From the NCBI RefSeq assembly GCF_900129905.1, contig NZ_FQXG01000002.1:620001-684000 (forward strand): a stretch of DNA of 64,000 bases, written 5' to 3'. Below are positions 2,141 to 6,479 of this stretch, one piece after another. The notes beneath the pieces are model-generated. The model was not told where the DNA came from. It saw only the letters and a list, made by a program, of their open reading frames with translations, and did not search any database. The DNA comes from Ferrimonas marina. GTDB taxonomy: Bacteria; Pseudomonadota; Gammaproteobacteria; Enterobacterales; Shewanellaceae. Position 1 is the stretch's first letter; the number at the start of each line of letters is the position of its first letter. The translations under genes were made by a program, and so were the position numbers.

Positions 2141-2217
2141 AACAACCTCCTGTAGAGTGAATAGTTATCTTTTTGGGTGGTGCGATAGCGCTTGGGCGCC
2201 CGGGCGTGACAACCCGA

Positions 2218-2565
2218 TTAAGAGGGGGTGCCGACGATCGGCTTGATCCAGTCCTGGACCAGGGAGTAGCGGCTTTGCGCAGGGCGCGGGGCGATGCCAG
2301 CGGGACGCTGGGCATAGGGTTGGGTGGCAAACATCACCACCAGGAAGAGGCAGACCGGCAACATCTCAGCTTCAGCGATGCGCTGTTCCGCCGCCTGGGA
2401 GGCCCACTGCTGCAGGGAGATCGCAGCATAAGTGTCGGCATCAGCATTACACTGAAGGGCGAACACCGGGGCCAGGTCAGCGGCCATAGGTGCAGTATTA
2501 CCCTGGGGTTCAGCCGCCGTCTGGGCCAGCAGCAGGGTGATCAACATCACAAAGAGGTAACGCAT
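2218..2565 (-). CDS. Small exported or membrane protein, unknown
   Basis: The 115-residue ORF has a strong AGGAGGTGAG ribosome binding site before the ATG at 2565, which makes it a likely real gene. Residues 1-18 look like a signal peptide (MRYLFVMLITLLLAQTAA). A second hydrophobic run near residues 68-84 begins with Met and itself looks like a signal sequence followed by AQ. The protein may have one internal membrane segment, or two small ORFs may have fused. Two cysteines are visible. No family is recognised. It is the first gene of the minus-strand envelope cluster, 77 bases before the barrel gene. Confidence 0.5.
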   Translation of the reverse strand: MRYLFVMLITLLLAQTAAEPQGNTAPMAADLAPVFALQCNADADTYAAISLQQWASQAAEQRIAEAEMLPVCLFLVVMFATQPYAQRPAGIAPRPAQSRYSLVQDWIKPIVGTPS

Positions 2566-2735
2566 GGGCTCACCTCCTGTTTGTGAGTTGCGTTGTGTTC
2601 TTTCTCATCGGACCACAGGCTGTGGCCTCAGTTCCACCATAGCCAGACTGAATGCATATTCAAAATGCATCTTTGGCAATCTGTGCGACACAGCACACTT
2701 TTCCACCAGCGGATGTAAAAGGCAGGCAATCGATT

Positions 2736-2790
2736 ATTGAGTCATTCGTGATACTTTCTTGATAACTCCGTGAAGCCCCCTTGATAAAGC
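2736..2790 (+). promoter_or_regulatory. Five 11-bp direct repeats, candidate response-regulator binding array
   Basis: Successive 11-base units start at 2736, 2747, 2758, 2769 and 2780. Their first eight bases are ATTGAGTC, CGTGATAC, CTTGATAA, CGTGAAGC and CTTGATAA, so TGA sits in the same phase in all five. Eleven-base spacing on one DNA face is the usual arrangement of half-sites for OmpR/PhoB-type regulators. The last unit also resembles a -35 box (TTGATA), with TAGGAC 18 bases on as a weak -10. The array ends 44 bases before the first spondin gene, and an OmpR-type regulator is encoded downstream, so autoregulation is the natural inference. Confidence 0.6.
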
Positions 2791-2834
2791 CTTCTTAGAC
2801 TGGCTAGGACTTGGTAACCACGGAGAGCAACACC

Positions 2835-3533
2835 ATGAACCTGCGAGCCCTGACCCTGGCCACCCTGGTGGCCGCCCCACTGAGCCAGGCACAAACCCTC
2901 ACCATTGACGTCACCAACCTGACCCAGGGGGTTTACTTCACCCCGCTGCTGCTGACCGCCCATGATGCCCAGTACAACCTGTTCCGGGTTGGCGAAGCGG
3001 CGATCCCCGAGCTGCAGGCGATGGCCGAGGGCGGCGACATTGCCGGCCTGGTCACCATCGCCGACAGCATCGGCGCGGTGTCCGCGGCCAATCCGGCTGA
3101 GGGCTTGTTGGGCCCAGCAATGACCACCCAGGCTGTGCTGGAGGACGTGGTGGCTGGCTCTGTGCTATCGGTCACCGCCATGGTGCTGCCCAGCAACGAT
3201 GGCTTTGTCGGTCTGGACAGCTGGACCGTGCCGGAGGAGCCGGGCACCTACATGGTGTATCTCAACGCCTACGATGCCGGCACTGAGGCCAATGATGAGC
3301 TGCTGATCGAGGGCGGCGGTGCCCCGGGCATGGCGGGTATGCCGGCTATCCCCGGTGACTTTGGCGGTACCGGTGGCACCGGGGTGACCACCGAGGAGCC
3401 CAACGCCACCGTACACATCCACCGCGGCACCCTGGGGGACACCGATCCCGCCGGTGGCCTGAGTGACGCCGACGCCCGGATCCACCGTTGGCTCAACCCG
3501 GTGGCCCGACTGACCATCACCGTGGCGGAATAA
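2835..3533 (+). CDS. Secreted spondin-domain protein
   Basis: The start at 2835 is preferred over an in-frame start at 2811 because it gives a clean signal peptide (cleavage after LSQA, about residue 19). The mature protein matches the bacterial Spond_N type: an N-terminal strand TLTIDVTNLTQ, a 'GFVGLDSW' core, YDAGTEANDE, and a closing IHRWLNPVARLTITV. The 232-residue product should be periplasmic or secreted. It is followed 12 bases later by a lipoprotein paralogue and then by a two-component system. Spondin domains in eukaryotes mediate extracellular binding. The bacterial role is not known to me. A Gly-rich loop around residues 168-185 is an insertion relative to the core. Confidence 0.8.
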   Translation: MNLRALTLATLVAAPLSQAQTLTIDVTNLTQGVYFTPLLLTAHDAQYNLFRVGEAAIPELQAMAEGGDIAGLVTIADSIGAVSAANPAEGLLGPAMTTQAVLEDVVAGSVLSVTAMVLPSNDGFVGLDSWTVPEEPGTYMVYLNAYDAGTEANDELLIEGGGAPGMAGMPAIPGDFGGTGGTGVTTEEPNATVHIHRGTLGDTDPAGGLSDADARIHRWLNPVARLTITVAE

Positions 3534-3545
3534 CGGGAGGCTGGC

Positions 3546-4274
3546 ATGAAGATGCGATTAATGATGCTGCCGCTGTTCGCTGCGGCTTTGCTTACCGGGT
3601 GTGATGATGACGACAACGGCACGGTCACGGTGGAACCCAGTCCGGCCCCGCCGGCGCCGGCGGCCGAACCCGCCAGCTTCGACATCACCGTGGTGAACCT
3701 GACCTCCGCCCAACCGATGTCGCCCCTGGCGGCCTACCTGCACGCCGGTGACGTCTCCGGCTGGACCTTTGGCATGCCCGCCAGTGAAGGCCTGGAGATC
3801 CTGGCCGAAGCGGGGGATGGCAGCCAATGGTTGACCATGGCCGACGAGGCCGGCGCCCTGGCCAGTGGCAGCGGTGACGGCATCCTGATGCCCGGCGCCA
3901 GCCAGACCCTGACCCTGGAGCTGGAGGCGGAAGGGATGGCCTACCTCACCCTGGCCACCATGCTGGTCAACACCAACGACGCCTTTGCCGGCATCAATGG
4001 CAAAGACCTGATGGCGTTAGCGGTGAGTGAAAGCATGACGATGAACCTGCCGGTGTACGATGCGGGCACCGAGGGCAACTCGGAGTTGGCCGCGACCATT
4101 CCCGGCCCGGCCGGCGGTGGTGCAGGCTACGACGCGATGCGGGATGACGTGGATTACGTGGCGCGCCATCCCGGTGTGGTTACCGCCGATGACGGCTATG
4201 TCGACTCGGCCCTGGCGTCAATCCATCGTTTTGATGCGCCAGTGGCTAGGCTGGTTGTAACACGCACCCGTTAG
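3546..4274 (+). CDS. Spondin-domain lipoprotein
   Basis: The 242-residue product begins with a lipoprotein signal and lipobox LLTGC (cysteine near residue 19) followed by four Asp. Asp at +2 is the classical Lol-avoidance signal in E. coli, so inner-membrane retention is possible, though the rule is not universal. A Pro/Ala linker (residues 30-42) leads into a Spond_N domain with the same landmarks as its neighbour: FDITVVNLT, NDAFAGING, YDAGTEGNSE and IHRFDAPVARL. The two genes are tandem paralogues, one soluble and one membrane-anchored. GGGAGG precedes the start. A long hairpin separates this gene from the response regulator. Confidence 0.8.
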   Translation: MKMRLMMLPLFAAALLTGCDDDDNGTVTVEPSPAPPAPAAEPASFDITVVNLTSAQPMSPLAAYLHAGDVSGWTFGMPASEGLEILAEAGDGSQWLTMADEAGALASGSGDGILMPGASQTLTLELEAEGMAYLTLATMLVNTNDAFAGINGKDLMALAVSESMTMNLPVYDAGTEGNSELAATIPGPAGGGAGYDAMRDDVDYVARHPGVVTADDGYVDSALASIHRFDAPVARLVVTRTR

Positions 4275-4278
4275 CCCC

Positions 4279-4318
4279 GGTCTGATGTCAGGGCACCAGG
4301 AGGGTGCCCTGACAGACC
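4279..4318 (+). other. Long intercistronic hairpin without a T-run
   Basis: An outer stem GGTCTG (4279-4284) pairs with CAGACC (4313-4318), and an inner GTCAGGGCACC stem pairs with GGTGCCCTGA around a short loop, with a two-base bulge. No T-run follows and the response-regulator start is 12 bases downstream. It is more likely an RNA stability or partial-attenuation element than a full terminator, and could lower expression of the regulators relative to the spondin proteins. Confidence 0.5.
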
Positions 4319-4330
4319 GAGGATAACGCC

Positions 4331-5029
4331 ATGGCCGATTTGCTGGTGATCGAGGACGAGCAGGACATCAACGCCCTGATCACCATGAACCTGGAGTCAC
4401 TCAATCACCGGGTGACCAGCTGCGACGACGGACGCCGCGGCTACGAGCTGGCCTCGAACCAGCGCTTTGACCTGATTGTGTTGGACCTGATGCTGCCGGG
4501 GATGGACGGGCTGAGCCTGTGCCAGCAACTGCGGCAGCACGGCTGCCATACCCCGATCCTGATGCTCACCGCCCGCAACAGCGAGCTGGACCGGGTAGTG
4601 GGACTGGAGAGTGGTGCCGACGACTACCTTACCAAGCCGTTTAGCGTGAGGGAGCTGCAGGCCCGGGTGAAGGCCCACCTGCGTCGAGCCCAGCTGACCG
4701 TGCCGCCCCCGGAGCCGGAACCCGCCGCCCTGCGGCGTGGCCCGCTGACCCTGGATGCCGGCCGACGGGCCTGTGAGCTCAACGGCAAGGCGGTGGAGCT
4801 GACCGGTACCGAGTTCGACCTGCTCTGGTACCTGTCGCAGCACCCCGGCCGGGTCTATCGCCGCGACGACCTGCTTAGCGCCGTCTGGGGCTACCAGCAC
4901 AACGGCTACCAACACACGGTGAACTCCCACATCAACCGGCTGCGGGCCAAGCTGGAGCAGGATCCGGCTCACCCCGAACTTGTCCTCACTGTCTGGGGCG
5001 TAGGATACAAATTTAATGACCAGATTTAA
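4331..5029 (+). CDS. OmpR/PhoB-family response regulator
   Basis: The 232-residue protein has an N-terminal receiver domain with the acidic pair E8/D9, phospho-acceptor Asp52 in VLDLMLPGMDG, and the switch Thr and Lys in MLTAR and YLTKPF. A C-terminal winged-helix DNA-binding domain follows (LTGTEFDLLWYL, then GVGYKFN at the end). The partner kinase gene overlaps its 3' end by 14 bases, which implies translational coupling. It lies downstream of two spondin-domain genes whose promoter carries five 11-bp-phased repeats, a plausible binding array for this regulator. The signal it answers to is unknown. Confidence 0.9.
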   Translation: MADLLVIEDEQDINALITMNLESLNHRVTSCDDGRRGYELASNQRFDLIVLDLMLPGMDGLSLCQQLRQHGCHTPILMLTARNSELDRVVGLESGADDYLTKPFSVRELQARVKAHLRRAQLTVPPPEPEPAALRRGPLTLDAGRRACELNGKAVELTGTEFDLLWYLSQHPGRVYRRDDLLSAVWGYQHNGYQHTVNSHINRLRAKLEQDPAHPELVLTVWGVGYKFNDQI

Positions 5030-6479
5030 TTCGCTGTTTGCCCGACTGGCCTGGGTGTTGCTGGCCACCTTTCTGTTGCTGGGCCTGGTGCTGGTGGCGG
5101 TCAGCCGCCAGCTGGACTCCGGCTACGAGGATGAGATCACCCAGCGGCTGCACTACGCCCTGGCCCAACACATCGCCATGGAAGGCCCCATCTTCCAAGG
5201 CGGCGAACCGGACCCGGCGGCGGTAGAGAAGGCGTTTCACAATATGATGATCCTGGGTAAGGGCTTCGAGTTCTACCTGCTAGATCCCCAGGGCCGCCTA
5301 CTCAACTATTCGGCGCCGGAGGAGAAGATCCAGCGGCGCCAGATCTCGATGGACGCGATCCAAAGCTACCTCAGTCCCAACCCTACCCTGCCGATGCGCG
5401 GCCCGGATCCCCGCTCGCCGGACCGGGACAAGATCTTCTCGGTGGCGCCGCTGTACGAGAACGAGGCGCTGACCGGCTACCTCTACATCATCATCAATGG
5501 CGAGATCTACGACAGCCTGGCCGCCCGGGTGCATCAGAAGCACTGGTGGGATCTGCCCGCCCTGGTGGTGGGGCTGGCCTGCCTGTTTGGCCTGCTCTCC
5601 TCGCTGGGCCTGCTGGCCTGGCTAACCCGGCCGCTGCGCCAGCTCACCGGTGAGATCGAAGGGCTGCAGCGCCAGGGCTTTACCGGCCAGCTGCGCCTGC
5701 GCGAGCACGGACCGGACGAAACCCAGCGGCTCAGCCATGCCTTCAACGCCCTTTCAGAGCGACTGGAGCAGCAGTATGACCGGGTCCGCAGCGTCGACGA
5801 GATGCGCCGGGAGCTGCTGGCCCACGTCAGCCACGACCTGCGCACCCCGTTGGCAGCACTGCAGGGCTACCTGGAGACCTGGCAGCTGCAGCACAAGCAG
5901 CATGGCGAAGCAGACCCGCGCTACATCACCATCGCCCACCAAAACGCCGAGAAGATCCATAAGATGGTGGACCAGCTGATGGAGCTGGCCCGGCTGGAGA
6001 GCGACCAGGTGCCGATGCAGATCGAGCCGATCAACATTGCCGAATTGGTGCAGGATGTGCTGCAGAAGTACCAGCCGGCGGCGGAGGCCAAGCAGGTGCT
6101 GCTGGACGTGCAACCCAAGGATCCCAGCCTGCAGGTGGCCGCCGACATCGAGAAGCTGGAGCGAGTGTTTACCAACCTAGTGGACAACGCCCTTCGCCAT
6201 TGCCAAAGCGGCGATACCATCACGGTACGACTCTCAGCCCGGCCTGAGCACCTGCACGTCACCGTGTGCGACAGCGGCATCGGTATCCCCGCCTCGGATC
6301 TGCCCCACATCTTCGATCCCCACTACAAGGCCGCCAACAGCGTCCGTGGTGACAGTGCGCATAGCGGTTTGGGGCTGGCGATCACCCGCAAGCTGCTGTC
6401 GCTGCACAACAGCGAGATCGAGGTGGCCAGCCAGGTTCAGGAAGGGACGGAGTTTCGCTTTAACCTGAGCTGGGCCTGA
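5016..6479 (+). CDS. Membrane sensor histidine kinase with HAMP domain
   Basis: The 487-residue protein has a transmembrane segment near residues 9-32, a periplasmic sensor region of about 145 residues, a second membrane segment near 178-202 and a HAMP linker. A HisKA domain follows with phospho-acceptor motif HVSHDLRTPL (His near 271), then an HATPase domain with the N box (NLVDNALRH), DSGIGI and GLGLAI. The periplasmic part is a double-Cache-like size but has no motif I can name. It overlaps the response-regulator gene by 14 bases and is its obvious partner. The ligand could involve the spondin proteins encoded upstream, but nothing here shows this directly. Confidence 0.9.
   Translation: MTRFNSLFARLAWVLLATFLLLGLVLVAVSRQLDSGYEDEITQRLHYALAQHIAMEGPIFQGGEPDPAAVEKAFHNMMILGKGFEFYLLDPQGRLLNYSAPEEKIQRRQISMDAIQSYLSPNPTLPMRGPDPRSPDRDKIFSVAPLYENEALTGYLYIIINGEIYDSLAARVHQKHWWDLPALVVGLACLFGLLSSLGLLAWLTRPLRQLTGEIEGLQRQGFTGQLRLREHGPDETQRLSHAFNALSERLEQQYDRVRSVDEMRRELLAHVSHDLRTPLAALQGYLETWQLQHKQHGEADPRYITIAHQNAEKIHKMVDQLMELARLESDQVPMQIEPINIAELVQDVLQKYQPAAEAKQVLLDVQPKDPSLQVAADIEKLERVFTNLVDNALRHCQSGDTITVRLSARPEHLHVTVCDSGIGIPASDLPHIFDPHYKAANSVRGDSAHSGLGLAITRKLLSLHNSEIEVASQVQEGTEFRFNLSWA

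Follow-up and report, generated by a model that had tools for sequence, protein, structure and literature searches.

The DNA analysed here is a 64,000-nucleotide stretch of the Ferrimonas marina genome (contig NZ_FQXG01000002.1, positions 620,001 to 684,000), referred to below as the window. Near its start lies an operon of four genes, encoding two spondin-domain proteins, a response regulator and a histidine kinase, preceded by a promoter region that carries a row of short direct repeats (Table 1). The receiver domain of the regulator (PF00072, 103 bits against a cut-off of 30.2) and its winged-helix Trans_reg_C domain (PF00486, 98.2 bits against a cut-off of 26.2) both score above cut-off, in agreement with the OmpR/PhoB type to which it had been assigned earlier. 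Among the best 25 of 100 NCBIfam families, the regulator reaches the cut-off of none. The window has no Rfam match at the gathering threshold, and an RNA feature was therefore rejected. Two genes on the opposite strand, at 1280-2140 and 2218-2565, adjoin the promoter and match nothing in Pfam or NCBIfam at E 0.01; by eye, the product of the first resembles an exported barrel-like protein and that of the second a small exported protein.

Table 1. Repeat units, promoter elements and genes of the spondin operon, in window coordinates.
Feature	Position	Strand	Description
Unit 0, TTGAG	2737..2741	+	In phase; mostly unconserved among relatives
Unit 1, GTGAT	2748..2752	+	Conserved half-site
Unit 2, TTGAT	2759..2763	+	Conserved half-site; commonest form in relatives GTGAT
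Unit 3, GTGAA	2770..2774	+	Conserved half-site
Unit 4, TTGAT	2781..2785	+	Promoter-proximal conserved half-site; 10 bp to the -10-like hexamer
-10-like hexamer, TAGACT	2796..2801	+	Begins 15 nt downstream of the first base of unit 4; absent from the original prediction
GGAG	2822..2825	+	Likely ribosome binding site, assigned from its letters
Spondin-domain protein 1 (232 aa)	2835..3533	+	Predicted exported, signal peptide by eye; NF038123 193.4 bits (cut-off 40), PF06468 36.4 bits (cut-off 24)
Spondin-domain protein 2 (242 aa)	3546..4274	+	Lipoprotein-like N-terminus by eye; NF038123 175 bits (cut-off 40), PF06468 26.4 bits (cut-off 24)
OmpR/PhoB-type response regulator (232 aa)	4331..5029	+	Candidate binder of the array; PF00072 and PF00486
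Membrane histidine kinase (487 aa)	5016..6479	+	HAMP-HisKA-HATPase; 5' end of the gene overlaps the 3' end of the regulator gene

Read from position 2736, the window runs ATTGAGTCATT CGTGATACTTT CTTGATAACTC CGTGAAGCCCC CTTGATAAAGC, with TGA starting at 2738, 2749, 2760, 2771 and 2782 and with the sequence CTTGATAA present twice, at 2758 and 2780. The original prediction had described five TGA-bearing repeats in exact 11-bp phase, with two identical copies and a phasing that is rare by chance, and on each of these points the sequence bears it out: the five-TGA pattern at 11-bp spacing matches once in the window when both strands are searched, and none of 100 dinucleotide shuffles of the whole window contains such a run. 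A looser pattern of three KTGA motifs at 11-bp spacing gives three overlapping matches, all at the array, compared with a shuffle mean of 0.04. In the 4.98-Mb genome of the organism, the four-TGA pattern has three matches, two of them overlapping at the array and one elsewhere (L078), with one match in the control, while a sequence-only model finds the array as its only match at E values up to 10 (E 1.2e-11; 150 of 189 first-look candidates scored). With 11-bp direct repeats upstream of a promoter, the array has the form of an OmpR/PhoB-type tandem operator. A separate short direct repeat, AATGCATATT / AATGCATCTT, lies upstream of the array at 2651-2673, measures 13 bp from start to start and falls outside the conserved operator.

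Spondin protein 1 was searched in 60 relatives and in 394 genomes of the order, two sets that overlap, and gave matches in 38 of the relatives at E 1e-8 and in 107 of the order genomes at E 1e-25. Upstream DNA was compared at 117 of these loci, 37 from the relatives set and 80 more from the order set. Seven of 87 new places (G166:C93, G064, G293:C15, G352, G284:C7, G178:C12 and G110:C26) lie outside this count, with arrays later found by other routes at G284:C7, G178:C12 and G110:C26, and a spondin match in G045 (E 3.6e-9) was excluded as too distant. Orthologous promoters carry the repeats, as the original prediction requires: a refined matrix places an array upstream of spondin 1 at 110 of the 117 loci (at least 20 bits), with six of the remaining seven scoring -14 or less and one 11.2, a count that is partly circular because 111 of the same loci trained the matrix and the cut-off of 20 was chosen after the scores were seen. 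A fixed motif of four GTGAT units, searched in the last 200 nt upstream, was untrained, the motif itself having been read from relatives; at a period of 11 it scores at least 15 in 87 of 116 upstream regions (window excluded), at each of the remaining eleven periods between 6 and 17 in 0 or 1 of 116, and in shuffled sequence in 0 of 1160. Distances of 11, 22 and 33 between TGA trinucleotides were observed 148, 91 and 45 times, compared with expected counts of 11.0, 10.2 and 10.3. Of the 14 genomes of the genus, 10 possess both operon and array and the other four have neither, and the sole strong model match per genome is the spondin operon promoter (E 4.8e-9 or better, with all others at 0.155 or weaker).

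The proposed five-unit extent holds for the four downstream units and mostly fails for the first. At the position of unit 0, TGA is found in 4 and any NGA in 20 of the 109 other array-bearing loci; most neighbouring offsets have NGA in 0-7 loci and a few in 10-13, so that an additional upstream unit is present in some lineages. At its downstream end the conserved feature takes in the -10-like hexamer, and it spans about 2748-2801. In registers set by the array alone, 86 of 90 loci have an xAxxxT hexamer at an offset of 15 nt from the point where unit 4 begins, and the next best offset accounts for 18 of 90. The -35 place at 17-bp spacing, 2773-2778, reads AAGCCC, and a scan of 2200-5100 for consensus sigma-70 promoters found 0. 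The layout of a class-II activator promoter, with a site at a fixed distance from the -10 and without a -35, is present here, the absence of the -35 being taken from the window sequence alone.

This layout resembles that of PhoB class-II promoters. Pho box half-sites are arranged head-to-tail, each as a 7-bp repeat followed by 4 bp, giving 22 bp for two (PMC4971064; PMC4415409), and the pho box usually substitutes for the -35 in Escherichia coli (PMC4971064). The array likewise consists of 11-bp half-sites close to a -10, lacks a -35 and is accompanied by a gene for an OmpR/PhoB-type regulator. Unlike the two-unit pho box, it has four conserved units, and its half-site is GTGAT rather than the CTGTCAT given in PMC4415409; no CTGTCAT-type pho box occurs in the array, whose units read GTGAT, TTGAT, GTGAA and TTGAT. 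The regulator falls below the cut-off of the PhoB model (TIGR02154, 201.7 bits against 296.2) and the kinase below that of PhoR.

Half-sites that end 10 bp before a -10 without a -35 reproduce the geometry of a pho-box promoter and therefore suggest an autoregulated class-II activator. We consider it likely that the array is a PhoB-like activator operator for the operon's own regulator, standing in for the -35. In this process, the co-encoded kinase would phosphorylate the regulator, the product of the third gene in the operon, and the phosphorylated regulator would bind the four 11-bp half-sites, which run head-to-tail over about 2748-2791 with the consensus GTGAT-N6 and would be occupied by two tandem regulator dimers. 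The last half-site would then sit near the -35 place, 10 bp upstream of TAGACT, where bound regulator could recruit sigma-70 polymerase and make up for the absent -35, in the manner of PhoB at pho boxes. The spondin-spondin-regulator-kinase operon would then be transcribed from this promoter, resulting in positive feedback. We infer binding by the regulator, its dependence on phosphorylation, the direction of the bound dimers and activation over repression.

The array and the adjacent regulator gene occur together. At 114 assessable loci (G140, G126 and G248 were omitted, their loci being cut by contig ends), both are present at 105, the array only at 2, the regulator only at none and neither at 7; the corresponding p-value of 8.7e-10 overstates independence, since five of the seven array-less loci belong to one genus. 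The two array-only exceptions strengthen the link, because G036 holds the regulator and kinase elsewhere in its genome and G090 holds them divergently upstream of the spondin gene. A single distant relative from a scan of genome contigs for spondin 1, Alteromonas indica (L031; spondin 37% identical, outside the 117-locus set), has no array (best score 12 of 20) and no regulator or kinase match in the 10.5 kb at its locus. Residues H195, T196, V197, N202, R203 and R205 are invariant across 110 translations of the regulator, of which 88 are distinct, and we take these to lie in the recognition-helix region.

Genome-wide similarity to the regulator failed to separate array-bearing from array-less genomes. 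In six array-less genomes the best regulator match is 1.6e-49 or weaker, with one lacking a match at 1e-45, and five of 17 array-bearing genomes tested (G018, G216, G225, G235 and G378) overlap with them, having no match better than 9.5e-49 anywhere because their adjacent regulators have diverged or were partly matched. The link between array and regulator thus rests on adjacency. In G108 the regulator is present and a second spondin copy has no clear array (11.2). In G199, where the array is among the weakest (22.5), the regulator match (G199:C1:1718168-1718842) holds one in-frame TAG, and the system there is possibly decaying.

It is improbable, in our view, that the array is instead bound by another regulator encoded elsewhere, such as a CreB-like or other OmpR-family protein, with the neighbouring regulator a mere passenger of the operon. 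In spacing and letters, GTGAW-N6-GTGAW resembles TTCACnnnnnnTTCAC, the cre/blr tag of CreB and BlrA-type regulators (PMC3660660), when the tag is read as its reverse complement; this tag is also an 11-bp direct repeat, and its TTCAC read backwards gives GTGAA, one base from GTGAT. The exact TTCACnnnnnnTTCAC is absent from either strand of the array, in which only unit 3 reads GTGAA and its neighbours read TTGAT; the regulator falls below the CreB cut-off (NF008296, 194.7 bits against 273), and the target genes of the cre/blr system are unlike those of the spondin operon. Binding by another protein would also fit the divergence of the adjacent regulator at some array-bearing loci and the array in G051, which stands before another gene in a genome with no regulator match at 1e-45. 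However, the G051 assembly is 91% complete with 4% contamination, and the contig may be foreign. Further against a passenger role, none of the 114 loci holds the adjacent regulator without the array, the array is kept where the regulator and kinase are unlinked, and a regulator at E 5.0e-69 or better is present in each of the six genomes in which arrays precede unlinked spondin genes.

The neighbouring regulator could also bind the array and act as a repressor, with the last unit covering the spacer beside the -10 and blocking polymerase. In favour of this, the start of unit 4 lies 15 nt before the -10-like hexamer, within the region covered by polymerase. However, there is no recognisable -35, with AAGCCC in its place and no promoter found by the scan, and the near-invariant spacing fits a pho box that replaces the -35 (PMC4971064). 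We regard repression as unlikely. We rejected DNA curvature or chance as the source of the phasing, an explanation that is scarcely credible: in many relatives the sequence that separates the half-sites is rich in A and T, but the conserved letters are GTGA and not A-tracts, a period of 10 gives 0 of 116 where a period of 11 gives 87 of 116, and the shuffles of the window and of the KTGA pattern, together with the array at 110 of 117 loci, speak against chance.

An autoregulated activator operator of this kind belongs to an operator type that is already known, and the two-component system itself is claimed by no NCBIfam cut-off among the best 25 matches. The claim that the array exceeds the customary number of two to four repeats does not stand: its fifth unit is mostly unconserved, and ArcA sites in E. 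coli consist of two to five direct repeats, mostly spaced 11 bp from centre to centre, with a four-repeat site footprinted over 44 bp (PMC3798270). The rest of the original proposal, that these are OmpR/PhoB-type half-sites and that the neighbouring regulator is their likely binder, gains support from the conserved phase and the co-occurrence. The array shares the 11-bp spacing of direct repeats with ArcA sites. In contrast to ArcA, a global regulator with variable architecture over 158 sites in that source, it has one layout and one strongly matching promoter per genome of the genus. In the open-licence literature, part of which was screened by title, we found no spondin two-component system and no function for bacterial spondin-domain proteins or for the regulator pair.

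Further arrays in the order were sought with a sequence-only model (R1, built from 26 loci) and by pattern search. The model gave 101 matches in 89 of the 394 genomes; matches in G171, G204, G267, G300, G348, G377 and G316 were among those left out of the reading, the one in G316 being a simple repeat by its letters. From the pattern listing, 13 stretches were inspected in one reading and most other entries were left out. In the genome of F. marina itself, the model finds no target besides the spondin operon array at E values up to 10. Arrays precede spondin genes that are unlinked to the regulator genes in the six genomes mentioned above: G038 (E 2.1e-9, on the same contig as the regulator genes and about 110 kb away), G110 (E 2.7e-5), G284 (E 9.7e-4), G293 (E 0.0011), G178 (E 0.0013) and G054 (E 0.031, two units).

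Other genes follow such arrays in one genus, g6, where the regulator is present at about 51% identity in 10 of 10 further genomes, chosen for their array matches. At least two units stand before a YHS-domain gene in seven genomes (G036, G061, G082, G101, G118, G159 and G195), before YceI genes in five (weakly in G036, and in G101, G118, G147 and G159) and before Dabb-domain genes in three (G101, G133 and G183); one member of each group was assigned with Pfam (the YHS gene of G101, the YceI gene of G118 and the Dabb gene of G101), and the others are alike by eye. Single cases elsewhere include arrays before genes for methionine sulfoxide reductase A/B (MsrA/B) in G370 and G051, the latter made up of four perfect GTGAT units and followed by a correctly spaced -10-like hexamer (L184:3182-3236, reverse strand), before di-haem peroxidase genes in G108 and G324, and before a DUF1223 gene in G387. 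In G036, a catalase-family gene has three GTGAT units in front of it and a gene that is cytochrome b561-like by eye behind it (L227:1406-2639, forward strand). G082 has an array, one step of which measures 10 bp, before an unclassified gene (L240) and another before a short unclassified gene (L242), and in G063 an array precedes the gene for a short exported-looking protein of no assigned family (L250). These extra-target matches are weak to moderate and were picked after many places had been viewed, with model E-values that are rough.

The additional arrays suggest a theme of envelope protection or protection from oxidative damage, which we treat as a lead rather than a result. A wider reading, which we put forward tentatively and hold to be possible though doubtful, is that this undescribed two-component system controls, through 11-bp-phased GTGAT arrays, a regulon for envelope protection and oxidative-damage repair that would comprise linked and unlinked spondins, YHS, YceI, MsrA/B, di-haem cytochrome c peroxidase and catalase-family proteins. 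The kinase would sense oxidative damage outside the cytoplasm, and the spondins would form part of the response. The array offers a precise and portable motif, four GTGAT units in 11-bp phase with the -10 at 15 nt, by which candidate targets of the regulator pair can be listed across the order and the signal then guessed from the targets. In addition, the approximately 110 natural promoters with a near-invariant distance between activator site and -10 form a natural series suited to studying how a -35 is replaced by tandem dimers of OmpR-family regulators.

Several matches were not accepted as targets. These are three places in G040; matches in G023, G043, G055, G166, G322, G071 and G402 (42%); G133:C102:12317; an array in G025 located where a receptor-like gene has its start codon; and matches in G228, G262 and G274, which have no regulator match at 1e-52. 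The GTGACCAAACC family from the pattern search is repetitive and distinct from the spondin operon array. A near-identical GTGACCAAACCGTGACCATTTCGTGAC stretch (L195, L198-L204 and L209) recurs up to three times per genome, mostly in family f25, and looks repetitive and unrelated to the spondin operator.
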